Source of the DNA: Ruoffia tabacinasalis
GTDB lineage: Bacteria; Bacillota; Bacilli; Lactobacillales; Aerococcaceae
DNA length: 64,000 bases
Assembly: GCF_005864045.1 (NCBI RefSeq)
Contig: NZ_VBSP01000001.1
Coordinates: forward strand, 62,001-126,000
Direction: 5' to 3'
The position numbers and the translations under genes were made by a program. Below, piece after piece: positions 30,935 through 51,719 of the stretch (its first letter is position 1; each line of letters opens with the position of its first letter). The notes beneath the pieces were generated by a model, which saw only the letters and a program-made list of their open reading frames with translations, was not told the DNA's origin and did no database searches.

Positions 30935-30942
30935 GAAAAAAC

Positions 30943-30976: not shown

Positions 30977-30992
30977 TTAAGGAGTGGGTAAT

Positions 30993-31631: not shown

Positions 31632-31713
31632 TTAATCGCTAAAAAATAGTATCAACCAAAAGAAAGGAAGTTAAAATTGTCAGATATAGAGATTTCCTCA
31701 TTCGAAGCGAAGG

Positions 31714-33630: not shown

Positions 33631-33704
33631 AGATAAAAAAGAACTTAAATATTTATCTTAGATTGGTAGATTTTTTTACTATATAAAATATATGAGGTGA
33701 AGAA

Positions 33705-34420: not shown

Positions 34421-34429
34421 GACTAGCTA

Positions 34430-36337: not shown

Positions 36338-36339
36338 TT

Positions 36340-37200: not shown

Positions 37201-37492
37201 AAACAGATTTAAAAGATAGAATTTTTTTCAATGACATTAAGTATTCAATGGGCTCGATTGTGGGTTGTTGTGGGCTTAATCGTGGGATATTACACTTAAA
37301 AGGTGATGTTTTTTATAAAATCACCAAAACATACGTGGGTTGTTTAGTGGGCTTTCACAAACAATCTGCCCCCACTGGAAACCCTTGCTCTGCAAGGGAT
37401 ATCACCTAGTGTGATATCATTTCCCCTTATGCTCTAACCAGAATCTCCCTAAAAATCAGGGAGATTGTGAAAATTCGCTGACGCGAATTATT
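37201..37492. other. candidate oriT region
   Basis: This gene-free region upstream of the accessory and relaxase genes has four perfect inverted repeats in about 110 bp: CCCTTG/CAAGGG (37382-37398), GATATCAC/GTGATATC (37398-37418), AATCTCCCT/AGGGAGATT (37442-37466) and AATTCGC/GCGAATT (37472-37? ending 37489). A further GGTGAT/ATCACC pair lies at 37302-37325. GTGGGTTGTT followed by GTGGGCTT occurs at about 37260 and again, slightly spaced, at 37337. Position and structure fit an oriT for the MobL relaxase; the nick site cannot be read. Confidence 0.65.
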
Positions 37493-37522
37493 TTGAAAGA
37501 AAACGAAAACGGAGTTGATCAG

Positions 37523-37768
37523 GTGGGAAATATTTTACTAAGGAATTTGAGTGATCAGAACAAAAATAATTTGATTCATTTACAGTTAAAAAGTGAATTT
37601 ACTTCGCTTAATTCTTATCTTATTTTTGTTTTAGAAAGTCATATAGAAGAAAGAATCACAAAAAATATTAATTCAGAATTTATTGAACATGAGAAAGATT
37701 TGATAGCAGCGGTCAAAGAGAATACTAAAGCTGTAACTACTTTACTCACGCAATTGTACAATGACTAA
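37523..37768 (+). CDS. small mobilization accessory protein 1
   Basis: The 81-residue product (VGNILLRNLSDQNKNNLIHL onward) has the strand-helix-helix look of ribbon-helix-helix DNA-binding proteins and a coiled C-terminus. GTG 37523 lies 8 bp after GGAG; a TTG at 37493 would extend into the oriT hairpins. Together with the next two genes it probably binds oriT and aids the relaxase, as auxiliary proteins do in MobL plasmids such as pLS20. Confidence 0.6.
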   Translation: MGNILLRNLSDQNKNNLIHLQLKSEFTSLNSYLIFVLESHIEERITKNINSEFIEHEKDLIAAVKENTKAVTTLLTQLYND

Positions 37769-37787
37769 ATCATAAGGGGGATATAAT

Positions 37788-38060
37788 TTGTCAGAAGAAA
37801 TAAAAATAAGGAATGTACCAACTAATGTGAGAAATAAACTCAAAGAAAAGTATTTTAATTCAAACGAAAAATCGTTCAACAGTTTCATGTTAGTTGTTCT
37901 AAATAATTATGCATTTCAAAATGAATTAGAAACTTCGATGAGTGAATATTCTGATAGACAAAAGGTATTAATTGAAATAGTTAATAGAAATACGCAAGTT
38001 ATAAATTTGATAAAAAATTTAAGTCTAGAAGAAAATGAGGGGAATTATATTGAAAACTAG
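37788..38060 (+). CDS. small mobilization accessory protein 2
   Basis: The 90-residue protein shares the plan of accessory protein 1: a short N-terminal strand (EIKIRNVPTNVRNKLKEKY), two helices and a C-terminal helix ending near LIKNLSLEE. It starts with TTG after AAGGGGG. A ribbon-helix-helix oriT-binding role is inferred from position and similarity of layout. Confidence 0.6.
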   Translation: MSEEIKIRNVPTNVRNKLKEKYFNSNEKSFNSFMLVVLNNYAFQNELETSMSEYSDRQKVLIEIVNRNTQVINLIKNLSLEENEGNYIEN

Positions 38061-38520
38061 GAAGCACTTGTTATTATCAGATAATACGTGGGAAATTCTG
38101 GATGATATACAACTCAAGATTGGGTCGAAATCTTACAGAGAAGTAATCGAATACTTAGTAGAAAATTATAAAGAAGTTTCAACTGTCAATAATATTTCAA
38201 ATGTTGTCGGGAATTATGTTGCAAGTCAAGTGAAGCAACAATTTGAAGAATACGAAACTACAATGAACGATCGATTTAATATTTTAAGGTTGCGAACAGG
38301 TTATGCAAGTAAGCATACACAAATTATTCTAGATATGATGAATAATTATATTCTAAAACATGATTTAGATAATGGTGTTGACGATGTGCCGGCTCTAATA
38401 TCAAATGCACCAACAAATGTTTATAACCAATCTTTAAAGAAGTATGACGAGCAAATGAAACACTTTCAAATGAACGCACAGAATAAAAAGCAAAAAGAGG
38501 AAGAAAAGCTAAATGAGTAG
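38050..38520 (+). CDS. mobilization accessory protein 3
   Basis: The 156-residue protein begins KTRKHLLLSDNTWEILDDI, a third ribbon-helix-helix-like N-terminus, followed by helical segments and a charged tail (QNKKQKEEEKLNE). I prefer TTG 38050 because GAGGGG lies 7 bp before it; an ATG at 38035 is in frame. It overlaps the previous gene by 11 and the relaxase by 8 bases, so the four genes are translationally linked. Confidence 0.6.
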   Translation: MKTRKHLLLSDNTWEILDDIQLKIGSKSYREVIEYLVENYKEVSTVNNISNVVGNYVASQVKQQFEEYETTMNDRFNILRLRTGYASKHTQIILDMMNNYILKHDLDNGVDDVPALISNAPTNVYNQSLKKYDEQMKHFQMNAQNKKQKEEEKLNE

Positions 38521-39748
38521 TCCGGCGATTGTTTTTAAAAATAAATTTTCACTGCATAATAATGTCATTTTAAATTCAACAGGTGGAACAAATAATTATG
38601 GCTTTTATGTTGATTATATGGATCGTGAAGATACAAAGATGGATGAAAAAATAGATGAACTCAACAAAATATCTGGTGAAATTAAGAACGATACCTATAT
38701 TCAGTACATGGAAAATCCATTGAAAACCAATAATGTTTTCAATGAACGAAATGATAGTTTATCAAAAGATGAAATCAATAACATGAAAGATAGTTTTGTA
38801 AAGTCACAAGAAAATGAATCTCCTATGTGGCAACAAGTCTTTAGTTTTGATAATCAATTTCTAAAAGAAAATGGTTTATTAGCCGAAGATGGAAAACTAA
38901 ATGAAGCGCCTTTAAAAAAGGCAACAAAAATTGCCATGGAAGAATTTAAAACTAAAATGAATTTTAATGAATCGATGAATTGGGTAGGAGCTATTCATTA
39001 TAATACAGATAATATCCACATCCATATTGCGGTTGTGGAGCAGGAGTCGAGCAGACCTATTATAGAATCAGGCAAGTATGCAGGTCAACGAAAAGCAAAA
39101 ATACCACAACGAGTGATGAAACAAGTTAAAAGTAAGTTTATTAATTCTATGATTGATCGTAATTATGAGTTGAACCGCATAAACGATTTAATGAGAATGG
39201 AATTAAATAAGCAAGTCAAAGATTTGAATTTAGAAAAGGATATAATAACGTTCCAAAAAGTAAATCTTTTATTAAAAGAACTTCCAACTGATCGCAGGCT
39301 TTGGAGGTACAACAATAATGTATTAAAGAAACACCGCCCATTGATTAATGAAATTACAAAAGATGTGATCAATCGGAAAGATCCTAAAAGTTATGAAGAC
39401 CTTGAAGCAAGATTAATAGATGAAGAAAAATTTAGAAAACAAATTTATGGGAATACCAACGATAGTTACAAAGAAAATAAATTGAATGAATTAAATGCAA
39501 TGATGGGAAATGCCTTATTAAAAAATATGAATATAAGCTATCCTAAAAATAGTTACAAGAAAGCGAACGATTTACACAATGATCTAAAAGTGATGTCTTA
39601 TCAAAACAAAAAGTTTTTATTTAATATTTCACAAATATTCGGAAGAAATAAACAAGATTATTTAAATGAATTGAATTTCGAAAGAAATCAAAGAGAAAAA
39701 TTAAATGAAGAGTATCTCTTACAAAATGATTTTGAAAAAAGAAGTTAA
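38513..39748 (+). CDS. MobL-family conjugative relaxase
   Basis: The 411-residue protein carries the metal-binding His triad of relaxases in the segment HYNTDNIHIHIAVVE (His162, His169, His171), an N-terminal region with a Tyr-rich stretch (YGFYVDYMDRE) and a helical C-terminal half. The layout matches the MOBL family typified by the pLS20 relaxase, which nicks oriT and pilots the strand through the coupling protein. The nearby three accessory genes and oriT hairpins support this. Confidence 0.8.
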   Translation: MSSPAIVFKNKFSLHNNVILNSTGGTNNYGFYVDYMDREDTKMDEKIDELNKISGEIKNDTYIQYMENPLKTNNVFNERNDSLSKDEINNMKDSFVKSQENESPMWQQVFSFDNQFLKENGLLAEDGKLNEAPLKKATKIAMEEFKTKMNFNESMNWVGAIHYNTDNIHIHIAVVEQESSRPIIESGKYAGQRKAKIPQRVMKQVKSKFINSMIDRNYELNRINDLMRMELNKQVKDLNLEKDIITFQKVNLLLKELPTDRRLWRYNNNVLKKHRPLINEITKDVINRKDPKSYEDLEARLIDEEKFRKQIYGNTNDSYKENKLNELNAMMGNALLKNMNISYPKNSYKKANDLHNDLKVMSYQNKKFLFNISQIFGRNKQDYLNELNFERNQREKLNEEYLLQNDFEKRS

Positions 39749-39919
39749 ATGATTCAGTTAAATGATTATCAAATGTTGTTGTTGACATTTTTTGATTAAA
39801 AAGGCAAACACTTAACTTGACTGTACTTACGATAAGAAATAAATAACAATACACCTTCATTTTAAACAACACACAAAGAGAATTAGAAGATACAGTTTAA
39901 GGTGATTTATCAGGTGGCC

Positions 39920-39949
39920 TTGTTCATTAGAGTATACCCTAATGAACAA
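39920..39949. other. res-like inverted repeat upstream of the resolvase
   Basis: TTGTTCATTAG (39920-39930) and CTAATGAACAA (39939-39949) form a perfect 11-bp inverted repeat around AGTATACC. A symmetrical site with a GTATAC centre about 75 bp before a serine resolvase gene is what a res crossover site looks like. Confidence 0.6.
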
Positions 39950-40022
39950 AGTGGACACATGAGTCAGTCAAGCTTTTGATATGGTTAATAGGGTTGGTTA
40001 AAATGTTTTAAGGAGAAAGAAA

Positions 40023-40619
40023 ATGGCTACAAAAATTGGATACGCAAGAATTAGCACTAAAGATCAAAAGTTGGATCGTCAAATTGAAGCATTGTCAAAA
40101 ACAGTATCAAAACTTTTTGTAGAAAAAGAAAGCGGAGCAACTCTTGAAAGGCCTGTTCTTCTTGAAATGTTAAATTTTATCAGAGAAGGAGATATTGTAG
40201 TTGTAACAGAATTAGATAGATTGAGTAGAAACCATAATGATATCTCAAATATTATGAATTCAATTCAAAATAAAGGAGCGACATTAGAAGTTCAGAATCT
40301 ACCAAGTTTGTCAGGTATTGAAGATGAGAGTTTGAGAAAATTAATAAATAATTTAATTATTGAAATTTATAAGTATCAAGCTGAATCAGAAAGAACTAGA
40401 ATTAGAGAAAGGCAACAGCAAGGAATTGAAATCGCAAAACAAAAAAATAAGTACAATGGAAGAAAACCACTTTTTAATAAAGAGTCACCTCAATTAAAAC
40501 ATGCGTTTGATTTGTATCTCTCTGGAGAATCTGATGCTGGTGTTGCTAGTTTAACTGGGATCGATCGCAGTACATTTCGAAGGTATAGAAAAAAATTTAA
40601 TGTTGAAAGAATAGATTAA
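40023..40619 (+). CDS. serine recombinase, resolvase/invertase family
   Basis: The 198-residue protein has the catalytic motif YARISTKDQ (Ser11), the TELDRLSRN region, the dimer helix (ESERTRIRERQQQGIEIAKQK) and a C-terminal helix-turn-helix (GVASLTGIDRSTFRRYRKKF). It probably resolves multimers of the circular element through the res-like site at 39920-39949. AAGGAG precedes the ATG, and a palindrome copy overlaps its stop codon. Confidence 0.88.
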   Translation: MATKIGYARISTKDQKLDRQIEALSKTVSKLFVEKESGATLERPVLLEMLNFIREGDIVVVTELDRLSRNHNDISNIMNSIQNKGATLEVQNLPSLSGIEDESLRKLINNLIIEIYKYQAESERTRIRERQQQGIEIAKQKNKYNGRKPLFNKESPQLKHAFDLYLSGESDAGVASLTGIDRSTFRRYRKKFNVERID

Positions 40620-40644
40620 CTTCTTGCCACGCTGGCAAGAAGTT
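40618..40644. repeat. palindrome copy 7
   Basis: AACTTCTTGCCA, centre CGC, TGGCAAGAAGTT. It begins within the resolvase stop codon and is followed by TTT. The next start is 35 bp on. Confidence 0.95.
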
Positions 40645-40679
40645 TTTAATTTAACAATCTAAATAGGAGGTTAAGTATA

Positions 40680-41984
40680 ATGGACGAAAAGAAACGATAC
40701 CGCTTCACCAAAAATCAAATTAAACAGGCATCCGAAATTTCAATTTACGATTATGTTAAAGCGCACGATTTTGGAAAAATTATCAATGATAGTGGTAATT
40801 ATGTCAAGTTATCTTATATGAACCACGATTCCATTGTCATTGATAAAAAGAAAAATTACTTTATCCATAATGCAAATTCTTATGATAAAAATGCTAAAGG
40901 TAATTTAATTAATTTTATCCAGTATATAAATAAAAATGAAATCGGCTTTCAAGAAGCTGTCCATCAAGCATTACTTTTTGGAAAGACTAATTCCAAAAAT
41001 CAAACAGTTGTTATTGAAGACGAGCAAAAAGATTTTTTTGAGTATGATTACAAACAAGCGAAACATAATTGGACTTTGGAAAGGTATTTAACCAGGGAAC
41101 GAAAAATTAATCCTGACATTGTAAAATACCTATTAAAAGAAAATTATATTATGCAGGACGTCCGAAATAATATTATATTCAATTGGACACAAGACGGAAA
41201 ACCACCAACTAAAGACAATCCCATTATTGGCGCAACGCAACAACTAACAGAAAAAGTTGATTCTGATAATCCTAATAAATACATCAAAATGAATTCAGAA
41301 AAATATCATGGTTTTAATATTTCAATCGGTGAAAAAACAAATAAGATTTATGCTTTCGAAGCGTCGATTGATTTGTTGTCTTATTGGACAATCCATAAAA
41401 ACGAATTAAATAATTGCCGACTGATTTCTCTTGAAGGTGTTAAAGACGGCACACTTTTTAAAATGTTGGCGGACGACTACACTAAAGAACCAAGAAATTT
41501 AACAGTTTATCTAAGCGTTGATAATGATAAAGCGGGGCATCTCTTTTTAGATAATCACATTCAATCGGTAGGAAAGTCACACTCAATCGAATACAAACAA
41601 AATATTCCTGATTATAATGCGATTAATTCAGATCAATATCAAGAAATAATAAACGTTGCTGAACAATTTAAATTGCCAAAAGAACTAATGCTAGCATTCT
41701 GGCAATACGACCGTCCGTTTATCAATGATAAAGAGAAGCTAACTAAAGTTTATCAAGGGGATATTCCGCAAGATATTAAGATTTTTTCAGAATTATATAA
41801 AGAAAATCGAGAGAATAAAAATGAAGTGTTTAAATCACTTGAATTGAGTAGCCGACAAATTGATCGTATAAACGAATGGCAAAATACGTTCAAAGCCCAC
41901 AATCATACCTTAAAGGACAATATACTGAAAGATTGGAACGATGTATTAAAATCAGAAGTGAGCATTAAAAAAAAGAGTCCATAA
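40680..41984 (+). CDS. DUF3991/TOPRIM primase-like protein, first part
   Basis: The 434-residue frame has an N-terminal DUF3991-like part (VKLSYMNHDSIVIDKKKNYF near residue 40, GNLINFIQY near 80) and a TOPRIM domain (IYAFEASIDLLSYWTIHKNE near 225, LYLSVDND-type acidic motif VYLSVDNDKAG near 280). Such proteins on Gram-positive mobile elements act as primase-like or mobilization factors. The frame ends shortly after an A8 run (41967-41974), while the coding sense continues in the -1 frame to 42619. AGGAGG precedes the ATG. Confidence 0.75.
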   Translation: MDEKKRYRFTKNQIKQASEISIYDYVKAHDFGKIINDSGNYVKLSYMNHDSIVIDKKKNYFIHNANSYDKNAKGNLINFIQYINKNEIGFQEAVHQALLFGKTNSKNQTVVIEDEQKDFFEYDYKQAKHNWTLERYLTRERKINPDIVKYLLKENYIMQDVRNNIIFNWTQDGKPPTKDNPIIGATQQLTEKVDSDNPNKYIKMNSEKYHGFNISIGEKTNKIYAFEASIDLLSYWTIHKNELNNCRLISLEGVKDGTLFKMLADDYTKEPRNLTVYLSVDNDKAGHLFLDNHIQSVGKSHSIEYKQNIPDYNAINSDQYQEIINVAEQFKLPKELMLAFWQYDRPFINDKEKLTKVYQGDIPQDIKIFSELYKENRENKNEVFKSLELSSRQIDRINEWQNTFKAHNHTLKDNILKDWNDVLKSEVSIKKKSP

Positions 41985-42619
41985 AACCTAAAAAAGAAAA
42001 TGCAACAAAGGATGAAATCGGTATTTCTGAATATATACTCAACAGAACACAACGATTAAATGAACAACAAGTTTCTGAAATTTCAAATGGAATACAAGTT
42101 GATTTAGACATTATTCAAATGTATGCAAATAAAGGCTGGTTACGATGTGACAAAGAAAACACTGATTATTATTTCGTATGGGGGAAGGATGGCAAGATTG
42201 TAGGTGCAAATAAATTGACAAGTGACTACCAAATAGCAAATCCCGTAAGCGGTAGCAGCGTTAAGGATAGTTTAATTATTACAATTGGAGACAATCCTAA
42301 AAATATCATTTTATTTGAACAACCCATAGATAGTCTAAAATATATTGCAGATAATCGGGATCAAATTGGTAACTGTATCTTAATTTGTAGCAGGGAAGGG
42401 GATTTAACTAAGCAATACTCCAGCGAAAAAGTGAATAATTATCTTAAAACCACTTCAATTGATAATATTGATATTTTTACTAACGCTCATAATAGTGAGA
42501 AGATTAAGGAAAACATTCTTAACCACATTGAAATTGAAAATAAAAACGAACACACCAAAAATTTTAACTTAAATGTGATGACAAATACACATACAAAAAC
42601 CTTTGAAAAAACATTTTAA
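41975..42619 (+). CDS. DUF3991/TOPRIM protein, continuation in the -1 frame
   Basis: After the A8 run, the -1 frame is open from ESIKPKKENATKDEIGISEY through IIQMYANKGWLRCD to 42619, about 214 codons, with no start codon or ribosome binding site of its own before ATG 42119. It holds a second small domain (YYFVWGKDGKIVGA, then ILFEQPIDSLKYIADNRDQI) like a partial TOPRIM repeat. The two frames most likely form one protein of about 646 residues, joined by slippage or broken by a real or sequencing indel. Confidence 0.65.
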   Translation, partial: ESIKPKKENATKDEIGISEYILNRTQRLNEQQVSEISNGIQVDLDIIQMYANKGWLRCDKENTDYYFVWGKDGKIVGANKLTSDYQIANPVSGSSVKDSLIITIGDNPKNIILFEQPIDSLKYIADNRDQIGNCILICSREGDLTKQYSSEKVNNYLKTTSIDNIDIFTNAHNSEKIKENILNHIEIENKNEHTKNFNLNVMTNTHTKTFEKTF

Positions 42620-42644
42620 TGACGATTAAGAATCAAATCAATAT

Positions 42645-42691
42645 AAAAAGCACCAACTTCTTGCCAGCGTGGCAAGAAGTTGGTGCTTTTT
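42645..42691. terminator. bidirectional terminator built on palindrome copy 8 (42655-42681)
   Basis: AACTTCTTGCCA, centre GCG, TGGCAAGAAGTT, extended on both sides by AAAAAGCACC (42645-42654) and GGTGCTTTTT (42682-42691). The perfect arms are thus 22 bp, with A and T runs for both strands. It lies between the convergent TOPRIM and XRE genes. Confidence 0.9.
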
Positions 42692-42698
42692 TTGATTC

Positions 42699-42989
42699 CT
42701 ATTCAAAACTCATGACTAATTTTTTCCCACTTTGTTCAGCAATGCTTTCTAGTGTTTTAATTGTAGGGTTAGCATTCCCATTTTCGATTCGTGTAATTGT
42801 TGATTGCGGTTTGTTGACTAATTCAGCAAATTCAAATTGTGTTAATCCTAATGATTCTCTCAACTTCATGACTAATACTGCATAATCAAACTTTTTACCT
42901 TCTTGTTCCATTCTATCAGAAAAATTTTTGTCAGATTGTTTCATTTCACTAATATACTTAGATGTTTTTATTGTAGTAATGTTTTTCAC
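42699..42989 (-). CDS. XRE-family helix-turn-helix antitoxin-like protein
   Basis: The 96-residue protein has a charged helical N-terminus and a HTH_3 domain (LRESLGLTQFEFAELVNKPQ, then TRIENGNANPTIKTLESIA). It is similar to the antitoxin at 43078-43353 but has no toxin gene of its own beside it. I prefer GTG 42989; the longer frame to 43028 would start inside palindrome copy 9. It may be a solitary antitoxin or a second regulator of the pair upstream. Confidence 0.7.
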   Translation of the reverse strand: MKNITTIKTSKYISEMKQSDKNFSDRMEQEGKKFDYAVLVMKLRESLGLTQFEFAELVNKPQSTITRIENGNANPTIKTLESIAEQSGKKLVMSFE

Positions 42990-43015
42990 TTTATCATCTC
43001 TCTTTATACCATTTA

Positions 43016-43042
43016 AACTTCTTGCCACCGTGGCAAGAAGTT
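43016..43042. repeat. palindrome copy 9
   Basis: AACTTCTTGCCA, centre CCG, TGGCAAGAAGTT. Seen from the minus strand it lies 26 bp upstream of the XRE gene start, between it and the antitoxin gene. Confidence 0.95.
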
Positions 43043-43077
43043 GTATTGTTTGTCGAGCGGAGATTAAACTTTAAAAC

Positions 43078-43353
43078 TTATTTGAATTCTACTGATAATT
43101 GTTTATCCAGACCAATTGAAATTTCTATAATAAGTTCAATTGTTGGATTCATCTCTCCAGTTTCAATTCTTGAAATAGTTGATTGAGGTTTGCCTATTTT
43201 TTTTGCTAGTTCTTCTTGAGTCATTCCTGCTTTTTTTCTTTGTTCTGCTAACCTAACGGCAAAATCTAACTTAGCATTATCAACTTCAATCTGTCTTTTG
43301 AATTTAGGGTTTTTAAGTGAATTTTCTCTAATATAATCTTTAACTTTACTCAT
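43078..43353 (-). CDS. HigA-like antitoxin (XRE family)
   Basis: The 91-residue protein has an N-terminal helix region and a HTH_3 domain (LAEQRKKAGMTQEELAKKIG, then SRIETGEMNPTIELIIEI). It starts at 43353 after AAAGGAG, overlapping the end of the toxin gene by eight bases. This toxin-first order with an XRE partner is typical of HigBA modules. It probably represses the promoter at 43726-43754 through the overlapping inverted repeat. Confidence 0.8.
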   Translation of the reverse strand: MSKVKDYIRENSLKNPKFKRQIEVDNAKLDFAVRLAEQRKKAGMTQEELAKKIGKPQSTISRIETGEMNPTIELIIEISIGLDKQLSVEFK

Positions 43354-43702
43354 CACTATCGCTCCTTTTTCTTTTTGATAAATATTTATCTCGTATCTTT
43401 TTCGATCGTTTGATTTCTTTAACAGGGGTTTCATTTGTTTTTTTCTTAAAACCATGTGTTATAAAGTAATTTGATTGTTCAACTTGGAAATATAAAGAAC
43501 GAATAAATAATTCATTTGTTCTTACGCGAATCTCATATAAATTATTGTCAATTTTTTTTACCCATTTCATATTTATTGCTATTTGTAGTCCATGCTCTTC
43601 AATCTTATTAATCATAGCAATTACTTGTGTCGTTTCTTTTAATCGCAAAGAATTTAAGAAATTATCAAATTCACTGTCCCAGTCAAAAGTTGGAAGAATC
43701 AT
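43346..43702 (-). CDS. HigB/Gp49-like toxin of the RelE superfamily
   Basis: The 118-residue protein has the compact fold pattern of phage-derived Gp49/HigB toxins: N-terminal helices (FDNFLNSLRLKETTQVIAMI), the strands KIDNNLYEIRVRTNELFIR and FITHGFKKKTNETPVKEI. The conserved basic GFKKK-T segment belongs to the ribosome-dependent mRNA interferase group. Its antitoxin overlaps it downstream. It starts at 43702 after AGGAGG. Confidence 0.8.
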   Translation of the reverse strand: MILPTFDWDSEFDNFLNSLRLKETTQVIAMINKIEEHGLQIAINMKWVKKIDNNLYEIRVRTNELFIRSLYFQVEQSNYFITHGFKKKTNETPVKEIKRSKKIRDKYLSKRKRSDSDE

Positions 43703-43725
43703 ATTTTACCTCCTGTTCACTTTTA

Positions 43726-43761
43726 ATTATTGCATATACGCTATAAAATTTCAATTTATAG
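43726..43761 (-). promoter_or_regulatory. promoter and operator of the toxin-antitoxin pair
   Basis: On the minus strand, TTGAAA (43754-43749), a 17-bp spacer and AATAAT (43731-43726) form a promoter 24 bp before the toxin start. The inverted repeat CTATAAA/TTTATAG (43741-43761) covers the -35 box and is a likely antitoxin operator. Confidence 0.6.
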
Positions 43762-43776
43762 TTCCCTTAAAAAGAG

Positions 43777-43809
43777 GCTACATCTCTTGTTTTAATTTTG
43801 AGATGTAGC
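43777..43809 (-). terminator. terminator of the 43817-44011 gene
   Basis: GCTACATCTC (43777-43786) and GAGATGTAGC (43800-43809) form a hairpin followed, on the minus strand, by CTCTTTTT. Confidence 0.75.
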
Positions 43810-43816
43810 TTATTTA

Positions 43817-44011
43817 TTAAATTGTTATTTTTAAAAAATCATCACTTATCAACCGAAGGTCATTCTCTATCCATTCATCATATAGTTCATCTAAACTTGT
43901 TTGATTGTAGTTGTTAGTTTCCAAAGCAATTATAGCTTGCACGTAGGCTTTTATATCTAAGTTTTGTATCGTCTCTAGCTGTGTAATCATAAGCAATACA
44001 TTATTATTCAT
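43817..44011 (-). CDS. small hypothetical protein (64 residues)
   Basis: The soluble acidic product (MNNNVLLMITQLETIQNLD onward) is helical. AAAGGAGAG precedes the ATG at 44011; a longer frame would start upstream at 44038 inside palindrome copy 10. It lies between the toxin-antitoxin pair and the RadC-like gene. No family recognised. Confidence 0.6.
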   Translation of the reverse strand: MNNNVLLMITQLETIQNLDIKAYVQAIIALETNNYNQTSLDELYDEWIENDLRLISDDFLKITI

Positions 44012-44036
44012 CTTTATTTTCTCTCCTTTTAATGGC

Positions 44037-44063
44037 ACTTCTAGCCAGACTGGCTAGAAGTGA
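44037..44063. repeat. palindrome copy 10 (most divergent)
   Basis: CACTTCTAGCCA, centre GAC, TGGCTAGAAGTG. Two base pairs differ from the consensus and both are compensated on the other arm. It lies upstream of the minus-strand gene at 43817-44011. Confidence 0.92.
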
Positions 44064-44077
44064 AAGACATTGTACAA

Positions 44078-44641
44078 TTAATTCCAAAGGTTCGTTGCTT
44101 CTCTTAAAGATATCGAATCAAGTTTTCCAATGATAACATGGTCCAGTAATTCAATCCCCATGAGGTCGCCACATTCTACCATGCGTTTTGTGAATTGAAT
44201 ATCAGCCCCAGATGGTTCAGAATCGCCTGAAGGGTGGTTATGAGCAACTACTATTCTAGCTGTTTCGTATTGAACTGCTTTTCTAAAAATTTCTCTAGGG
44301 TGTGCGATACTAGAATTTACCGTTCCTTTGAAAATTTGTTCCATTTTAATTATTTCGTTTTTTGTATTTAATAATAAAACAACTAATATTTCTTCTTTGT
44401 AATGACACATTATTTTTTCCAAATGATACATCAACTGCCTTGAACTGCCGATTTGTATTTTTTTAAGACCATCCATAGCATATAGCTCATAAGATTCACG
44501 TATTATTGATAATTTTTCAATATCTCTTTTTGTGAGAAGTTGATTATCAATCACGAAAGTTGGATTTAATAAATCAGTTACCGGCACTTGATTAAAACTT
44601 TCTCTAGCTTTACTACTTAATAACGAAACTATATTATTCAT
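44078..44641 (-). CDS. RadC-like JAB-domain protein
   Basis: The 187-residue protein has the RadC JAMM metal motif HNHPSGDSEPSGAD and the conserved segment HPREIFRKAVQYETARIVVA before it. The usual RadC N-terminal helix-hairpin-helix part is shortened. RadC-like proteins are frequent on plasmids and phages; their biochemical role is unclear. AAAGGACGTGT, the same unusual initiation leader as in parA, precedes the ATG at 44641. Confidence 0.82.
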   Translation of the reverse strand: MNNIVSLLSSKARESFNQVPVTDLLNPTFVIDNQLLTKRDIEKLSIIRESYELYAMDGLKKIQIGSSRQLMYHLEKIMCHYKEEILVVLLLNTKNEIIKMEQIFKGTVNSSIAHPREIFRKAVQYETARIVVAHNHPSGDSEPSGADIQFTKRMVECGDLMGIELLDHVIIGKLDSISLREATNLWN

Positions 44642-45069
44642 ATTCTACACGTCCTTTGAATTTAATACCTGCCGTTGTCGGCTGGCTTACTTTCAAAGTT
44701 GCATATTTCAAATGGATATCAAGGGCTAGTTCTTGTTAGCGACTTTAGGCGCTTACAAGTAACTGCATGTTTACCCTTGAAATCCATTTTAAATGTGCGA
44801 CTATCTCTTTGTTTTTACTACATTAATCATCTGATGAACGTTATATTTTTTCTACTTTTAGACAGTCTTATTTTCAGTTATATGAATATTAAGTGTGATA
44901 CATTCAAATGTACAGGCCAATATTTTGTCACCGATTCAGATGAAAAGTAAGTAAAAAACTTTCATGAATGAAAGAAGAAATACAATTTTATGATATTAGT
45001 GAGTCAATTTATAAGAAAGGGGACTAAAAATATAGGTTGGTCATTATTACTATTTATTAAATAATAATT
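44642..45069. other. gene-free region with a long nested hairpin upstream of radC-like gene
   Basis: The arm TTTCAAATGGATATCAAGGG (44706-44725) is almost perfectly complementary to 44774-44793. Inside it, CTTGTTAGCG (44732-44741) faces CGCTTACAAG (44750-44759) with one mismatch. Together they can fold into one extended structure of about 90 bases on either strand. A single-strand origin or a radC leader RNA are possibilities. I see no convincing gene in the stretch. Confidence 0.5.
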
Positions 45070-45122
45070 AAAAAGACCCAGACAAAGTTAGATAAAATCT
45101 AGCTTTGTCTGGGTCTTTTTTT
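45070..45122. terminator. bidirectional terminator
   Basis: AAAAAGACCCAGACAAAG (45070-45087) pairs with its perfect complement at 45103-45120, with an inner imperfect stem. It ends the minus-strand gene at 45156-46022 and could block transcripts from the left. Confidence 0.85.
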
Positions 45123-45155
45123 CATGAAATTTATATATTCCATATGATTTTTCGG

Positions 45156-46022
45156 TTATCTTTCTTCAAGAACCTCTTTAAGAGCTTCTTGGATAATCTC
45201 AGCATCGTCGGGGGTTTGAATGATTAGTTCGTCCGATTTCATAATTGCTGCAGATTGAGCCGTTTGTAAAGATTGTTTTACATTTGGATCTTCTATGGAG
45301 TTGATATATTCATTTTGGTTGTCCCAAGCTTTTTTAATTATGTCATAATATTCTGTTTTTGCATTCAAAATTGATGAATTGTTTTTCTGTTCAAATTGAG
45401 TATTACTAACCTCGTCCGTTTCTGTTTGATCGATTGACTCTAATAAATATTCTAAAAAGACTGAATCTTCTACGAAATCGTTCATTTTATCTACATCGTA
45501 ATTATTAATTGCTAAAGAAATATTGCCTGCATTGTTATAAAACAAATAATATGCGTCATTAACTACATTCAATACATCCTCTTTGTCAGCATTCTCTTGA
45601 ATTTTCAACTCTGTATTTACAAAAACATTTCGAGTTTTATCTTCTTCATCCAAGATTGTAATTTCCTTAGTTTGTATATTTTCAATAGTTACGGGATAGA
45701 AGATCGACGGTACTTCTTCATTCATATTGAAGTATATCCCCATTCCGTAAGGATTAAGATCCTCTACATTTATATCGATTGACATTGGTAAATGTTTTCT
45801 TGATTTTGATTCCCTAAGAAATCTTTGATTTGCTGATTGGTCGGTCGTTTCATCATCTAACGCAATTGTTTTCACCCACTCGTCAAGTTTAACAGCATAT
45901 GGAAAATTATACTCTACAGAATATTTGGATTGAGAATCGTTGTCTGTCGCGTTACTTTTCTGCAAGCTATAGCCAAAAACAATAATTAGAATTGCACCAA
46001 AAAAAATTAATATTTTTTTCAT
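45156..46022 (-). CDS. secreted or membrane-anchored protein of unknown function
   Basis: The 288-residue product begins with an uncleaved anchor or signal (MKKILIFFGAILIIVFGYSL) followed by an acidic, polar extracellular domain. No Cys lipobox and no LPXTG are seen. I chose ATG 46022 because AGGAGG lies just before it. It is transcribed alone toward the terminator at 45070. No family recognised. Confidence 0.7.
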   Translation of the reverse strand: MKKILIFFGAILIIVFGYSLQKSNATDNDSQSKYSVEYNFPYAVKLDEWVKTIALDDETTDQSANQRFLRESKSRKHLPMSIDINVEDLNPYGMGIYFNMNEEVPSIFYPVTIENIQTKEITILDEEDKTRNVFVNTELKIQENADKEDVLNVVNDAYYLFYNNAGNISLAINNYDVDKMNDFVEDSVFLEYLLESIDQTETDEVSNTQFEQKNNSSILNAKTEYYDIIKKAWDNQNEYINSIEDPNVKQSLQTAQSAAIMKSDELIIQTPDDAEIIQEALKEVLEER

Positions 46023-46278
46023 TGTTGTACCTCCTTGTGTTTTTTCATCATTCAAACAATTTAATTCAATATAAACATTTTACTCATAAATTAGTATTTT
46101 ATCAAATAAATTTGAAGACTACATTAATATAAAAACACAAAAAGAACATTATTTTCTGGAAATAAGTAAAACAAAAGAGTCACAAAATTAAAAAAACAAC
46201 CACATATACATTAATAATAATTAAAGGGGGTGTAATAGTATTTTTCACAGGTAATGAAATATTCGGGGGAATGAATTG

Positions 46279-46656
46279 ATGGTCGATTTAAGTTGGCTAA
46301 CAAACAATGTTATTGATATGGTTTCAAGTCCGCTAATTCACCTTTTTGTCATTGTATCTTTATTAGATATATTAACAGAATTAAAGGCAAACTCGTGGCA
46401 TAGCTCTGTGAAATCAAACAATAACTCGTCAAAATTAAGTTTTCTTTTGTCGCATGTATTGGTTATTAGTACTGTTATGTTTTTATATCCATATCTAGTT
46501 TATTTCGATTTTAAAGTATATGGAGACACAACTCTATTATTTTATATCGCTAGACATGGTGTGTCAGTTATAGATAATTTCACAAAAATGGGAGTGAATA
46601 TACCTCCTTTTGTGAAAAGTTTAATTAGCAAAATAATGAGTAATAAACAAAATTAA
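46279..46656 (+). CDS. phage holin family protein (holin 4_1 / toxin-secretion type)
   Basis: The 125-residue protein has two or three membrane segments: LIHLFVIVSLLDILTELKA, then FLLSHVLVISTVMFLYPYLV. It also has the family-typical end (GVSVIDNFTKMGVNIPPFV). Holins of this family permeabilise the membrane in phage lysis or in bacteriocin and toxin release. An endolysin-like gene lies 860 bp downstream, so the pair resembles a lysis cassette. The ATG at 46279 follows GGGGG. Confidence 0.75.
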   Translation: MVDLSWLTNNVIDMVSSPLIHLFVIVSLLDILTELKANSWHSSVKSNNNSSKLSFLLSHVLVISTVMFLYPYLVYFDFKVYGDTTLLFYIARHGVSVIDNFTKMGVNIPPFVKSLISKIMSNKQN

Positions 46657-46747
46657 TTTTGCATTCCAATTTTCTTTGCAAAATTAAAATATGAATCAAT
46701 CAATTTAAATCTTAACTCATGATCAAATGTATCCAGTTGATTGAGTA

Positions 46748-47365
46748 ATGAGAGTGATAAAATTTATGTGGAATGAATTGGAGGAACTATTTTTAATTAA
46801 TAATACATCATTAGAAATCAGTTATGTTTATGAAAAAGGGTTAGAAATAATAAATCCATACTTAATAAAATGTTCAAAAATTTTCCAACAAAATGCTAAT
46901 GATAGAAATTTGAACATTCCATTCGAAGATTTTTATAGTAATGCTTTATTATACGTTTGGAAAGGTATGGAAGATTATATTGAAAAACAGCTGTCAGACA
47001 AATATACAATTAAAAATGTGTTGATACGTCGGATAAAATTAAGCGAGCTTAAAACTTGGGGTATGTACAAGAAAAAAGGCACAAAATATGACCAGCAAGA
47101 AATATCATATGCTAGCGCTAGAAATTATCCTCTTTCAGAAATAAATGAAGTTCATTTCAGTTTTGATTCGAACATAGATGAGAATGTCATTGTAAAAACT
47201 TCGGTTAAATCAGCTTTAAATATAATGAAAGAGAATAACTTAGAAAGCGCAATCTTTATAAAAAAATTACTTATCGGATATACTTCTAAAGATGCATTTT
47301 TATCCACGATGAAAGGAGTGAAAAGATATGGAAATAGAGAAAGGAAACAAGCTGAAAAGAATTAA
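46748..47365 (+). CDS. divergent sigma-factor-like protein
   Basis: The 205-residue protein resembles small sigma-70-like factors: a region-2-like N-terminal part (IPFEDFYSNALLYVWKGMEDY near residue 60), a linker and a helical C-terminus with a possible HTH (LIGYTSKDAFLSTMKGVKRYG). Similarity is faint. Its place between a holin and a lysin recalls UviA/TcdR-type sigma factors that drive toxin or bacteriocin release genes. The function is inference. A weak site precedes the ATG. Confidence 0.45.
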   Translation: MRVIKFMWNELEELFLINNTSLEISYVYEKGLEIINPYLIKCSKIFQQNANDRNLNIPFEDFYSNALLYVWKGMEDYIEKQLSDKYTIKNVLIRRIKLSELKTWGMYKKKGTKYDQQEISYASARNYPLSEINEVHFSFDSNIDENVIVKTSVKSALNIMKENNLESAIFIKKLLIGYTSKDAFLSTMKGVKRYGNRERKQAEKN

Positions 47366-47411
47366 GAAGAAATTTATAAGTATTTATGATAACGAGTTAG
47401 GAAGTAAATAA
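47328..47411 (+). CDS. 27-residue basic peptide ORF
   Basis: AAAGGAGTG at 47312-47320 precedes an ATG that opens 27 codons, beginning MEIEKGNKLKRIKKKFISIY, overlapping the end of the sigma-like gene in another frame. The peptide is strongly basic in its middle. It may be a real small product or chance. Confidence 0.35.
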   Translation: MEIEKGNKLKRIKKKFISIYDNELGSK

Positions 47412-47520
47412 ATATTTTGAGATAAAGTGTCACAAACTAATCTTTTGAGGTACATATATATCGTATTGAATTTATGCTGCAGCAGAATTAATACAACATT
47501 AAATTATATGGAGGAAAAAT

Positions 47521-49365
47521 ATGGCAACTACAGTAACAAATATATTACAAGAGGCAAGTAAATACATTGGGGTTGTGCAAGGTTCTGCTCAACACATACA
47601 AATTGTTAATAAATACAATTCCGTTAAACCGTTACCACAAGGATATCAAGTGACATATGATGATGATTGGTGTGACACCTTCATTAGTTATTTAGCTATT
47701 CAAACTGGTGCAGTAGATTTAATCGGTCGCGAATGTGGTGTTCAGCGTCACATTGATATTTTTAAGAACCTAGGAATTTGGATAGAAGATGGAACAATTA
47801 AACCAAAACCAGGTGATATTATTACGTTTGCTTGGTCTACCTCTTATCAGCCAAACAACTCTTGGGCGGATCATATTGGAATTGTTGAAAGTGTATCTGG
47901 AAATACTATCACAACTATTGAAGGAAATTCTAGTCGTTCTGTTCGTAGAAGAACATATAGCGTTGGTCATGGCAATATTCGTGGATATGCTAGACCTAGT
48001 TATCAAACCGGATCAAGCTCAACTCCACAACAATATAGTGGTGGCGCACTTACAAACGCTGGTCGAACTATGACGCAGAATAATATTCGTTTAATCATTC
48101 AATATGCTAAGCAATACAATATTAAACCAAGCTTTATGATTGCCCAAATGTATATTGAGAGTCATTGGGGTGACCCCAACACATCTGTTGTGGGTAGTGT
48201 AGATAATAATTGGAGTGGTATTTCTCAACCATTTACAGCACCTTCGGATTTAGCAATAAAAATGAGTAGGGGCTCAGCACGTCCTAGTAACGAAGGGGGA
48301 TATTATGTACATTTTGATACGTTAGAAGATTATTTTAAAGCGTATGCCTTTATTCTTTCAAATAGAAATGGAATCTATAAAGTTCAAGGGGCCACAACTA
48401 TTGAAGCGTTTTGTAAGGGATTATTTAGAGTAGGTGGAGCTACCAGTGATTATGCTGCTAGTGGTTATCAGCATTATGTTAACTTACTTGTACCAACCTA
48501 TAATGCTATTAAGCAACAAAACCCTGGGAAATTAGAACAGATTGATTCTAGTGAAGCCGGTCCAGAAAATACCGGAGGAGTTTCACCCGATCCAGAAATT
48601 TCAAATCCTGGTGATAATGATACTTTCCATCGTACTCAGGAATTTGGAACCTTCTTCCCAAATACTACTGTTAATGTTCGAGACTATCCTAGTTTACAAG
48701 GAAATGTCTTAGCACAGTATACAATTGGCGAAAGTGTTACTTATGATTCATATGTTATTAACAATGGATACGTATGGTTGAGCTACATTTCTTATTCAGG
48801 ATCTCGTCGATACGTTGCATGGCGTGTTCAAAACGGAGAGAAGTTTGGAACCATTCCTTCAGGATCGAATGACGGTTTTACAAGAGTTCCAGAGAATGGT
48901 ACTTTTTTTCCAGAAATGACTATCAATGTTCGTGACTATCCAAGTACACAAGGGAATATAGTAGCTCAATATCATGTTGGCGAAAGTGTTATCTATGATT
49001 CATATATAATCAACAATGGATATGTATGGTTAAGTTACATCTCATATTCTGGTCCTCGTCGTTATGTTGCATGGCGTGTTCAAGGTGGAGAGTTATTCGG
49101 ATCATTTAATGCTGAATTAACACCTTCAACACAACGCATCCTAGAAACAGGTGTATTTTATCCAAACAAAACGATTAATGTCAGAGCTTTTCCTGGAACA
49201 CAAGGAAATGTTCTTGCTCAATATACAAACGGTGAGAATTTTACCTATGATTCATATGTTATTAACGATGGTTATGTATGGTTAAGTTATGTTGCGTCTT
49301 CTGGATCACGACGTTACGTTGCATGGCGTGTTCAGGGGGGAGAAACATTCGGTACTATCATTTAA
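47521..49365 (+). CDS. endolysin-like protein: CHAP, glucosaminidase, three SH3 repeats
   Basis: The 614-residue protein has an N-terminal CHAP amidase/endopeptidase domain (Cys51 in DDDWCDTF, His in WADHIGIVE near 118). A glucosaminidase domain follows (YNIKPSFMIAQMYIESHWG near 205), then three SH3_5-type wall-binding repeats, each with NVRDYPS or NVRAFPG and RRYVAWRVQ. There is no signal peptide, so it is built like a phage endolysin and would need the upstream holin for export. GGAGG precedes the ATG, and a terminator follows. Confidence 0.88.
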   Translation: MATTVTNILQEASKYIGVVQGSAQHIQIVNKYNSVKPLPQGYQVTYDDDWCDTFISYLAIQTGAVDLIGRECGVQRHIDIFKNLGIWIEDGTIKPKPGDIITFAWSTSYQPNNSWADHIGIVESVSGNTITTIEGNSSRSVRRRTYSVGHGNIRGYARPSYQTGSSSTPQQYSGGALTNAGRTMTQNNIRLIIQYAKQYNIKPSFMIAQMYIESHWGDPNTSVVGSVDNNWSGISQPFTAPSDLAIKMSRGSARPSNEGGYYVHFDTLEDYFKAYAFILSNRNGIYKVQGATTIEAFCKGLFRVGGATSDYAASGYQHYVNLLVPTYNAIKQQNPGKLEQIDSSEAGPENTGGVSPDPEISNPGDNDTFHRTQEFGTFFPNTTVNVRDYPSLQGNVLAQYTIGESVTYDSYVINNGYVWLSYISYSGSRRYVAWRVQNGEKFGTIPSGSNDGFTRVPENGTFFPEMTINVRDYPSTQGNIVAQYHVGESVIYDSYIINNGYVWLSYISYSGPRRYVAWRVQGGELFGSFNAELTPSTQRILETGVFYPNKTINVRAFPGTQGNVLAQYTNGENFTYDSYVINDGYVWLSYVASSGSRRYVAWRVQGGETFGTII

Positions 49366-49436
49366 TTTTTTTATCTATAAACGTTATTTGTCAGTAATTT
49401 AGCAAAAGTGAATTTAGTTAAAATAGATAAAATATG

Positions 49437-49470
49437 CAAAAAGCAAGCCTATTTCAGGTTTGCTTTTTTA
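49437..49470 (+). terminator. terminator after the endolysin-like gene
   Basis: AAAAAGCAAGCCT (from 49438) pairs with AGGTTTGCTTTTT (from 49456), with one bulge or mismatch. Confidence 0.75.
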
Positions 49471-49855
49471 GTTTTTTTACTTACATACTAAGGGATATTA
49501 GTATAAACTAACTGAGAACTCACAACGTTTGCTCAATTTTATAATCTCTGTGAGATATCTAAAATCAATAACTTGTAATTTATTTCTAAAAAATAATTTT
49601 ACTTCATTCACAATGGGAACGTTTTATATTGAAGATTATACAATTCAAGTTCATATAGTTAAATTTAAATTCTTTGTAAAGTTTCTGAAAAAGCACTTAC
49701 CTAACACATTTACAAGACAAACTCCCAAAAAATAGGTTGTTAAATTGACGATTCGTTCTAAAACGTTAATTGAATAACGTTTCTTCTTTCTTTTACAATT
49801 TAAATAGTAAGCGAAAACGTGATAGAATGGATGATAGAAGGAGAGAGGTGATCAA
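49471..49855. promoter_or_regulatory. gene-free region with operator-like inverted repeat before the recombinase-like gene
   Basis: The perfect repeat AAACGTTA/TAACGTTT (49761-49768 and 49775-49782) lies about 75 bp before the recombinase-like start and may be an operator. A 68-codon frame at 49529-49735 has no ribosome binding site and is ignored. Confidence 0.45.
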
Positions 49856-50806
49856 ATGGAAGACTATTCGCAGCATTTACTCAAAAAAGGATATAGTGTG
49901 AACACTATTACAGCCCATTCTTATTATGCACGTAAATTTAGTCAATATTTAGACCAACAAGCATTAGATATTGACACCATAAAAACAAATGATATATACC
50001 ATTATTTAGAACAAACAAGACAAAAAAATGAAAATAGCACATATAATAGTGAGCTTTCATCCATAAAGGTCTTATTTAGTTATCTGTCAGAAAAGTATTC
50101 AAATCCAGTATTAAAAAAACCGGCGCAATTTAGGTCATTAAAATTCAAGAAATTACCTTGCTGTACAAACTTAGAAGCAATATTTAAAATTGAAATGCTC
50201 CTTAGAAATTCAACAAAGATTGAAGATTTTGAAAAAATAATTTTGTTACTAATTATGAATCATGGTATGAATCCAGTAGATATCATTCAATTAAAAATAG
50301 AAGATATAAACTTTAAGGACTCTATACTTTCTTATTCAAAGAACAATATTACACTATGTATAAAATTATTTAACGAGGACCAAAACCATTTTTTTAACTA
50401 TTTTAAGAATAAACACCATGGTATTAACGACCAACTTTTGATTGATATGAAATATAAGTCTATAAAGAAGTATCATATCCATAAGTTATTTAAAAATCTT
50501 GAAAGATATGATATCTATACGAACCCAACACAGCTAAGGAATCGGTTTATTCTTGATAGCTTGAATGTTGGGATACCGGCGCTTTATGTCGCTACATACG
50601 TTGGGATAACAAGCTTAAATCAAATATTAAGATTTGAAACGTTAACAGACGAGTACATATTAAAAGGGAAAATTGAAATTAATAAACTAAGAATGAAAGA
50701 AGGGTATAATCATGGAAAAATCAAACAAAACAGAGGAAGTTCTATCCCTCTTCAAATCAATGTCAAGAGAAGAGAAGATACAAATACTAGAAATACTGCT
50801 CAATAA
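49856..50806 (+). CDS. catalytically degenerate tyrosine recombinase
   Basis: The 316-residue protein has the SAM-like core-binding N-domain (LKKGYSVNTITAHSYYARKF) and the C-terminal fold of Xer/integrase enzymes. By hand alignment to XerD the catalytic set R-K-H-R-H-Y reads N-K-T-R-I-F: GLR is replaced by GMN, the HxLR box by PTQLRNRF, LGH by VGI, and the Tyr by Phe in ILRFE. It therefore probably cannot cut DNA and may act as an accessory factor for host XerC/XerD at the flanking dif-like sites. AGGAG precedes the ATG. It overlaps the next gene by 95 bases. Confidence 0.75.
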   Translation: MEDYSQHLLKKGYSVNTITAHSYYARKFSQYLDQQALDIDTIKTNDIYHYLEQTRQKNENSTYNSELSSIKVLFSYLSEKYSNPVLKKPAQFRSLKFKKLPCCTNLEAIFKIEMLLRNSTKIEDFEKIILLLIMNHGMNPVDIIQLKIEDINFKDSILSYSKNNITLCIKLFNEDQNHFFNYFKNKHHGINDQLLIDMKYKSIKKYHIHKLFKNLERYDIYTNPTQLRNRFILDSLNVGIPALYVATYVGITSLNQILRFETLTDEYILKGKIEINKLRMKEGYNHGKIKQNRGSSIPLQINVKRREDTNTRNTAQ

Positions 50807-51017
50807 ATATACAACAAATCAAATTGAAGCTACTCATTTAGCGGATGTTCATAACGGCCAGTTAGTAACAGCCGTTGAAAGAGGAACTTTAAGATTAATA
50901 CATGAATATGGTAAAGGGAAGTACCGCTCACACCGTGTGTTTTTGCTAGAGGATATTGTAAAGTATGCAAACACAATGCGAAATATGAGAGATCTTAGAA
51001 ACAAAAAATTCTATTAA
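50712..51017 (+). CDS. excisionase-like small DNA-binding protein
   Basis: The 101-residue protein has an N-terminal helix and a winged-HTH-like C-domain (ATHLADVHNGQLVTAVERGT, then GKGKYRSHRVFLLEDIVKYA) of the MerR/excisionase type. It overlaps the recombinase-like gene and lies at the element's end, the usual place for a recombination directionality factor. AAGAAGGG precedes the ATG. The role is inferred. Confidence 0.6.
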   Translation: MEKSNKTEEVLSLFKSMSREEKIQILEILLNKYTTNQIEATHLADVHNGQLVTAVERGTLRLIHEYGKGKYRSHRVFLLEDIVKYANTMRNMRDLRNKKFY

Positions 51018-51072
51018 TTTTTAAAATAAAAAGAACAAAATTCCGTTTTTATACCTATGTGTTACACTTCAA

Positions 51073-51545
51073 CACTTAAATGAACATTTAGCATTTAAGT
51101 GAAGTTGACAGAAAAATTTATTATCGATTGTTTACCGTTTACAGCAGTCATTTAGCTAGCATATGAAAGTTTTTGAATTATTAATAAATCGCTTGCTTTG
51201 TGTGTGGTTGTTTGGTAAACTTTCACTAAATAGAGAAACGAATGTATGTTCTCTGTTTCGTTCATTGATAAATAAATGGTAATATCGGTTATTACCTAAC
51301 AGGTCAAAGCAGACCTATTGTAAAAAAGCGCTAGTCGGTGAAATGCGGACTATCGGTAGAAGAAACTACCTGCTATTGCTGTGAAAGATAACGTGCCTAT
51401 AAAGCCAATATCAGCTATTTATCGCCATGAAACGCAATGATCTTCAATTATCATTGAGTGGAGCGAAAAAGGAGACGCAACGACCTTCAAGAGAAGAGAG
51501 CGAATGAAATGAATGAACTTTCGTTAACTCATTCATTTATTTTAT
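51073..51545. ncRNA. candidate structured RNA or origin region at the element's right end
   Basis: No gene is present, but at least eight inverted repeats follow one another: 51073-51101, 51164-51225, 51278-51296, 51301-51316, 51332-51352, 51355-51370, 51435-51456 and 51507-51538. The last (AAATGAATGA/TCATTCATTT) is followed by a T-rich tract like a terminator on the plus strand. The stretch 51300-51500 is purine-rich, unlike its surroundings. A TTGACA box lies at 51105-51110, but no clear -10 is seen. I cannot match it to a known RNA family. Confidence 0.5.
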
Positions 51546-51556
51546 TTTAACTAATT

Positions 51557-51584
51557 TGGGTTTACATAATATATATTATCGAAC
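51557..51584. other. attR: dif-like recombination site
   Basis: GGTTTACATAA (51557-51567), core TATATA (51568-51573), then TTATCGAACTT (51574-51584). The first arm and core match attL with one mismatch. The right arm fits the Firmicute dif XerC arm far better than the corresponding arm of attL does, so it belongs to the chromosome. Confidence 0.7.
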
Positions 51585-51719
51585 TTATTTAACGAAGATA
51601 ACCATATTACTAAATCTATTGGTTAATATCGTGGCACATGAATTGTATTATAACTTCAATTATTTTATCATTAAAATAATCACTCCGTTGCTTTTATATT
51701 TTTAAAGGAGAAATTTGAT

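Follow-up and report, generated by a model that had tools for sequence, protein, structure and literature searches.

A catalytically dead tyrosine recombinase lies at one end of an integrative conjugative element (ICE) that is integrated at the dif site of Ruoffia tabacinasalis, and we propose that this protein may be an accessory factor for XerC/XerD recombination at the att sites of the element. Judging from the sequence data, we assign this proposal a probability of about 0.5. The element was identified in a stretch of 64,000 nucleotides, referred to here as the window. A first-pass annotation of the window had pointed out the dead recombinase and an excisionase-like gene next to dif-like ends. 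Beyond that annotation, we found that the recombinase/HTH pair belongs to a whole ICE and is separated from dif by a conserved structured element. The features are summarized in Table 1.

Table 1 Features of the element and its flanks in the window
Feature	Coordinates	Strand	Basis or remarks
Left att site	10549..10576	.	outer XerD-type arm AGTTTACATAA, centre TATATA, element-side arm GTAAACTTGTT
Integrative conjugative element at dif (41,010 bp)	10566..51575	.	empty site in two same-genus genomes; conjugation genes
ParA and ParB	10698..12421	+	Pfam AAA_31, ParB_N
VirD4-type coupling protein	26382..28460	+	NF045973, 255.5 bits (cut-off 250)
VirB4-type conjugation ATPase	31714..33630	+	NF045975, 257 bits, below cut-off 590
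Lysozyme-like/NlpC hydrolase	34430..36337	+	Pfam
MobP2/MobL relaxase	38513..39748	+	MobP2 over cut-off
Small serine recombinase (resolvase type)	40023..40619	+	Pfam Resolvase
Catalytically dead tyrosine recombinase, 316 aa	49856..50806	+	ORF, Pfam, alignment
Small HTH-like protein, 101 aa	50712..51017	+	start overlaps recombinase 3' end; similarly placed relatives in two genomes
Probable full conserved region of the RNA	51328..51506	+	alignment A4; P1 to P5 by eye
Conserved structured RNA (probable), core (helices P2 and P3)	51347..51418	+	covariation; no Rfam match
Right att site	51559..51586	.	element-side arm GGTTTACATAA, centre TATATA, outer XerC-type arm TTATCGAACTT

The dif-like ends proved to be real. 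The left and right sites have 16 successive bases in common and share the XerD-type arm and the 6-bp centre, and no chance match to the right site was obtained at up to 3 mismatches in 100 shuffles. Joining the outer halves of the two sites gives AGTTTACATAATATATATTATCGAACTT, which is present exactly (0 mismatches) and once each in both other genomes of the genus (G220 and G341), and the outer half of the left site is identical to the empty dif of these genomes. The empty dif of G220 has the same neighbours on both sides as in the window. That of G341 has the same right side, and its left neighbour, trkA, lies ~4 kb away behind other genes and a transposase. Neither the dead recombinase nor the RNA described below was detected in G220 and G341 at the thresholds used. 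The predicted circle junction, GGTTTACATAATATATAGTAAACTTGTT, agrees with dif at 10/11 positions of the XerD arm and 6/6 of the centre, and at 4/11 of the second arm.

By its gene content the element is an ICE, and it may be capable of self-transfer: it encodes a relaxase, a coupling protein and a T4SS ATPase homologue. Further genes encode an ArdC-like protein, a Toprim protein and RadC. The only tyrosine recombinase of the element is the dead one, and a PF00589 search of the same genome found no second one inside the element; a small serine recombinase is also present. The host XerC and XerD scored over the curated cut-offs and keep the catalytic residues R-K-H-R-H-Y. Integration at the host dif and carriage of a dif-like att site are two properties of an IMEX, and both were found. 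The element looks like an ICE-type IMEX, and its use of the host Xer recombinases is strongly implied.

Several other features of the element were recorded. A 26-nt palindrome (AACTTCTTGCCA, three bases, TGGCAAGAAGT) occurs nine times at 10734-43041, mostly in intergenic positions, and possibly represents ParB sites or terminators; a similar, shorter palindrome adjoins ParA in genome G393. A second, degenerate dif-like stretch immediately inside the left end (10565-10605) looks by eye like the chromosomal sequence flanking the right end. The region 16156-21162 encodes a large protein that appears CnaB-like by eye and has a block of short-period repeats at its start. Next to the dead recombinase, at 46276-49365, are holin-like and CHAP/glucosaminidase/SH3 lysin genes, which form a phage-like pair inside a conjugative element.

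Both open reading frames of the pair are present on the forward strand as claimed in the first-pass annotation, the second overlapping the 3' end of the first. In the 316-aa protein, Pfam detected the N-terminal SAM-like recombinase domain with 44.1 bits (cut-off 22.3) and the catalytic domain with 24.3 bits, slightly below its cut-off of 27.1. The protein was aligned with the host XerC, the host XerD and 15 controls, and reads N-K-T-R-I-F at the Arg-I, Lys, His, Arg-II, His and Tyr positions, exactly the letters given earlier. The two host proteins and all 15 XerC/D-type controls covering the six positions read R-K-H-R-H-Y. These controls were derived from 26 loci, which yielded 17 ORFs, minus one in a wrong frame and one fragment; the ORFs were chosen by a motif filter biased towards an intact HxxR/GH region. 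The score against the curated XerD model (50.7 bits) was below the cut-off (329.6), and the R-K-H-R-H/W-Y set of active recombinases is not present. By sequence the protein is a member of the tyrosine-recombinase superfamily, yet it lies outside the definition of an active recombinase. An AlphaFold model based on three sequences had a mean pLDDT of 50, with 70-89 over residues 1-80 and ~50 or less beyond. Foldseek with this low-confidence model gave Xer and other tyrosine recombinases as the best matches, at TM-scores <=0.30. A match to PDB chain 9i5v_14 was set aside, the catalytic set of this chain being intact by eye.

Homologues were collected by a protein search of 395 genomes of the order and by inspection of RNA neighbourhoods. 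The protein search matched 30 of the 395 genomes, from which the window protein and three others were taken as members on score and coverage. The family comprises five members: those of the window, Hutsoniella sourekii (G293; like the window, Aerococcaceae according to NCBI), G329, an Atopostipes MAG (G196) and G013. Identity to the window protein is 26% for Hutsoniella, 28% for G329 and 22% for the Atopostipes MAG; the G013 protein matches the Hutsoniella protein in part only (tblastn). The first-pass annotation had suggested that the same degenerate residues be sought in homologues at dif sites, and a shared loss of catalytic residues is what we found. The catalytic positions read K-P-R-R-I-F in both Hutsoniella and G329, I-R-R-R-I-Y in the Atopostipes MAG and S-gap-R-R-L-Y in G013. 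Arg-I, the HxxR His and the GH His are gone in all five, Arg-II is retained in all five, and a Tyr is present at the nucleophile position in the Atopostipes MAG and G013. Tyr248, two residues before the usual GH, and Arg228 are invariant by eye in the five proteins. Every one of the five genes lies upstream of a dif site, with the RNA in between.

The reading frames of the five members are open over 266-323 codons, although identity is low. The Hutsoniella and G329 proteins, with 73% identity, are the sole pair in which selection was testable. Their dN/dS was 0.126 overall and 0.119 in the catalytic part (dS ~1.1, near saturation), indicating that the dead catalytic domain is under purifying selection in this pair. 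A decayed pseudogene was rejected on the same ratio between the two relatives, at the same near-saturated dS.

To survey the class, we used a profile (A1) that is unspecific: it matched 335 of 398 genomes, presumably through XerC/D and integrases. Its source members scored 1e-135 or better, and non-member matches 2.5e-23 or weaker (window aside). Member-level scores occurred in 3 of 76 genomes of the window's own family (own, G293 and G329) and in 1 of 27 of the Atopostipes family, and these are the same sequences from which the profile was built. As G013 was not recovered by the profile at 1e-19, more divergent members may have been missed. No match at E 1e-5 was obtained among phage records. 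Two candidates were rejected as members: a Parageobacillus plasmid match with 24.5% identity, whose catalytic set looks intact by eye, and the viral contig L069, which by eye carries an ordinary recombinase.

The small HTH-like gene directly follows and overlaps the dead recombinase gene in three of the five members (window, Hutsoniella and G329), and none was seen at the loci of the Atopostipes MAG and G013. The description of its 101-aa product as excisionase-like found no clear support: the matches were weak (PHROG 4691, E = 0.011; Pfam HTH_17 in two relatives, E = 0.036), no Pfam or NCBIfam model matched over its cut-off, and the structure model was poor, with no structural match at E <= 0.001. 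A relative stands beside the RNA in G357, where the dead recombinase was not detected. Other relatives in G085 and G225 (L073 and L074) had no recombinase or RNA seen nearby, and one of them adjoins a nagA-like gene.

A non-coding block between the recombinase/HTH genes and dif is common to the first four loci. It contains a conserved structured element that is probably an RNA and is called the RNA below. In the core alignment of the four loci, 8 of 15 pairs change on both sides, 98.2% of cells are paired, and 0 of 500 shuffles were as good. In an alignment of 11 sequences, both partners vary in 11 of 14 pairs and pairing holds for 93.4% of cells, with 0/500 shuffles as good; the rows of this alignment were picked by the covariance model, which favours the structure. 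One covariation measure, further pair types, was weaker than the others, 5/500 shuffles being as high for the first alignment and 33/500 for the 11 sequences. Hairpin P1, stem P4, GGAGACGC and a hairpin before GAGCGA were also common to most loci by eye. Because wobble pairs account for only 2 of 128 paired cells in the tested helices, a folded DNA strand has to be considered as well. Rfam 15 gave no match over the gathering score in the window, and the lowest E values in relaxed scans were 0.59 for the window stretch and 0.72 for the Hutsoniella stretch, all far under the gathering scores. Single-sequence folds were uninformative, with z values of -2.73 (Hutsoniella), -0.94 (window) and +0.49 (Atopostipes).

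A covariance model search of the 395 genomes of the order returned 22 matching genomes at E <= 0.1, of which 12 reached E < 1e-3. The latter, minus G227 and plus G167, which was found separately, are the 12 accepted RNA loci. The G227 match was dropped because it is antisense inside an ABC-permease gene and has no dif; the one weaker match inspected of ten (G299) was dropped, also having no dif. Among 220 genomes of the class, the RNA was found in one, that of the window itself. When plasmids were searched with three RNA stretches, a single match resulted, which covers the dif end of the query only, and 5 of 7 matches from a pattern search of the genome collection look like chance by sequence context.

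A dif half-site (<=1 mismatch) lies 213-442 nt downstream of the core start in 9 of the 12 accepted loci, or 9 of the 11 that are readable; the G167 contig ends 272 nt after the core start, so that dif is unreadable there, and G357 and G393 have no dif half-site near the RNA. In the half-site search of 11 genomes, namely ten that carry accepted RNA loci plus G227, the dropped false match, the half-site was single in 10 and adjacent to the RNA in 8. All five dead recombinases have the RNA and dif beside them. At G091, G313 and G014, where the RNA and dif are present, tblastn detected no dead recombinase in the 54-56 kb read, and a divergent one could be missed by this search. Since none was detected at these three loci, the protein appears not to be needed for the RNA-dif site to persist. 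The G254 contig ends too early for the dead recombinase to be judged. Two further observations were made at these sites. A T-rich tract precedes dif by a short distance on the element side in all nine RNA-dif loci (by eye), and in G014 (L135 9662-9740) the main site is preceded, at a distance of 49 bp, by a second, degenerate dif-like site whose half-site has 3 mismatches.

Promoter-like sites clearly better than shuffles were found in 3 of the 12 loci. These near-consensus promoters precede the core by ~160-170 nt in Hutsoniella, G329 and G357, where 0/200, 0/200 and 2/200 mononucleotide shuffles, respectively, were as good; the window's own copy has no clear promoter. In G393, a terminator-like hairpin follows the core (by eye). 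There the RNA precedes the ParA gene of a related ICE; the G357 copy is inside a conjugative element. Because the RNA accompanies ICE genes in these two genomes, it may go with the ICE family in general instead of with Xer recombination, which weakens the case for a direct role at dif.

The Atopostipes MAG carries a second dif half-site at position 5969 of contig C80, with a noncanonical inner arm and followed by genes that are RepA-like by eye, and the outer arm of its RNA-side site on contig C59 is TTATGCTGAGT. The two sites look like the ends of a second element of the same design, a link drawn across two contigs. The polarity of dif relative to the module is reversed in two of the five members, Hutsoniella and G329. 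The Hutsoniella element has the appearance of a short remnant by gene content, and the far end of the G329 element is occupied by insertion sequences (by eye).

In Xer systems, an att site with one mismatching arm may need help or special timing. We suggest that the ICE would enter and leave the host dif through the host XerC and XerD, following the IMEX strategy, and that these would exchange strands between dif and the site on the circle, which matches dif in its XerD arm and centre but not in its other arm. The dead recombinase would have been retained for its DNA-binding fold. It most likely binds the att sites, perhaps on the noncanonical arm in place of XerC, leaving the cutting to XerD. 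Once bound, it could permit, time or direct recombination in an architectural or activating capacity. Further candidate parts of the same control module are the small HTH protein and the neighbouring RNA. With no other tyrosine recombinase detected in the element by the PF00589 search and both host Xer genes intact, the natural interpretation is that the dead protein acts on host Xer. We infer from sequence a chain that comprises host Xer use, DNA binding by the dead recombinase, its contact with Xer, activation or directionality, and the roles of the HTH protein and the RNA.

An accessory function on XerC/XerD had already been advanced in the first-pass annotation, and it stood in part. In its favour are the ICE at dif with an empty counterpart, the intact host Xer genes without another tyrosine recombinase in the element, the catalytic loss common to the family, purifying selection and recurrence at dif in all five members. 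It is complicated by the small number of members, two of which keep the nucleophile-position Tyr and two of which lack the HTH gene, and by the RNA, which could be the functional core. The inverted polarity in Hutsoniella and G329 is not predicted by a simple model in which the protein replaces XerC at one fixed arm. A more elaborate version, which we regard as unlikely, is a ribonucleoprotein in which the dead Xer paralogue and the HTH protein, on an RNA transcribed beside dif, would load or activate XerC/XerD on the mismatched att site and set the direction. We know of no RNA-assisted tyrosine-recombinase reaction of such a kind.

The same data were weighed against other explanations. It is possible, at rather low odds, that the dead recombinase is a regulator that holds att/dif for stable integration, excludes a second element or represses genes at the element end. 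Its recombinase homology without the catalytic set and its position at the att end fit such a role, and dif-resident elements need a way to stay in, a problem described for the gonococcal genetic island (GGI) in the consulted part of PMC5357621; however, no positive sign of repression or exclusion was seen, and such a regulator is hard to tell from an accessory factor. We are doubtful that the RNA is the functional partner, with the dead recombinase and the HTH protein as RNA-binding or RNA-regulated parts of an RNA-controlled switch. The strong covariation, the promoters in three loci and the presence of the RNA next to every one of the five dead recombinases and next to the G357 HTH gene agree with a switch of this kind, but the window's copy shows no clear promoter, and the RNA occurs without a detected dead recombinase at G091, G313, G014 and G357, and in the stretch read at G393. 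Still less probable is that the supposed RNA is a DNA structure, such as a single-strand origin, part of an oriT or attachment DNA folded during transfer, on which the dead recombinase acts. The few wobble pairs are compatible with DNA, the element encodes a relaxase and is presumably transferred as a single strand, and CTXphi uses folded single-stranded DNA at dif according to the portion of PMC5357621 available; the terminator-like hairpin in G393 and the strong promoters before the core in three loci argue against it.

Two further explanations seem very improbable to us. One is that the small serine recombinase integrates the element and the dead tyrosine recombinase is a bystander. The serine recombinase is the sole intact site-specific recombinase noticed in the element, and homologues with 34.6% and 35.8% identity are found in the Hutsoniella and G329 stretches. 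These homologues, however, could belong to ordinary transposons, and the insertion falls precisely at dif, with two elements retaining the XerD arm and the 6-bp centre at each end, as expected for Xer. The other, to which we give equally little credence, is that the protein is a decaying recombinase, or is cryptically active with displaced catalytic residues. The invariance of Tyr248 and Arg228 in all five members makes cryptic activity conceivable from the sequence, and the retained Arg-II and the Tyr in its normal place in two members point the same way, but no alternative conserved set of Arg, His and Tyr was seen. Decay is opposed by the dN/dS of 0.13 between the two relatives and by frames that stay open in every member.

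Known IMEX include the T4SS-bearing GGI, TLCphi, VGJphi, CTXphi and LME-1 (PMC5357621 and PMC9765430, as far as their consulted text goes). The window element resembles them in its integration at dif through a dif-like att site, one arm of which is divergent in GGI and TLCphi, and it resembles GGI in being a large element with T4SS genes (same portions of PMC5357621 and PMC9765430). In contrast, it is a Bacillota ICE whose divergent arm is on the XerC side, whereas that of GGI and TLCphi is on the XerD side (PMC5357621, partial text), and it encodes a dead Xer-like protein and an HTH-like protein along with a structured RNA. The proposed role of the dead recombinase is similar, by described function, to that of XafT, the XerD-activating factor encoded by a Vibrio cholerae IMEX, in that an element-encoded factor acts on host Xer (PMC9765430, sections consulted). 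The Rcd RNA of ColE1 cer is likewise encoded within an Xer site region; it differs in being 70 nt long and in binding tryptophanase (PMC5357621, in the text at hand), and its sequence was compared through the Rfam scans only. As an Xer-type relative, the NCBIfam XerD-like protein NF002685/PRK02436 is also comparable, the window protein scoring 26.0 bits and other members 31.0 and 37.4 bits against a cut-off of 178. We take NF002685/PRK02436 to be the streptococcal XerD-like protein that is inactive at dif, and XafT to be unrelated to tyrosine recombinases. Among the titles and abstract beginnings returned by searches of the open-access literature, none described a dead tyrosine recombinase encoded by an IMEX or an RNA located at dif in elements of this type.

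For elements that use host Xer without a working integrase of their own, the question is how staying and leaving are controlled. The trigger of Xer is unsettled in Bacillus subtilis, where neither SftA nor SpoIIIE activates CodV or RipX directly, according to the part of PMC5357621 consulted. The conserved dead recombinase at dif is a concrete candidate for this control, for which the two same-genus genomes provide empty-site controls, and the conserved, probable RNA beside it is a new object for study.
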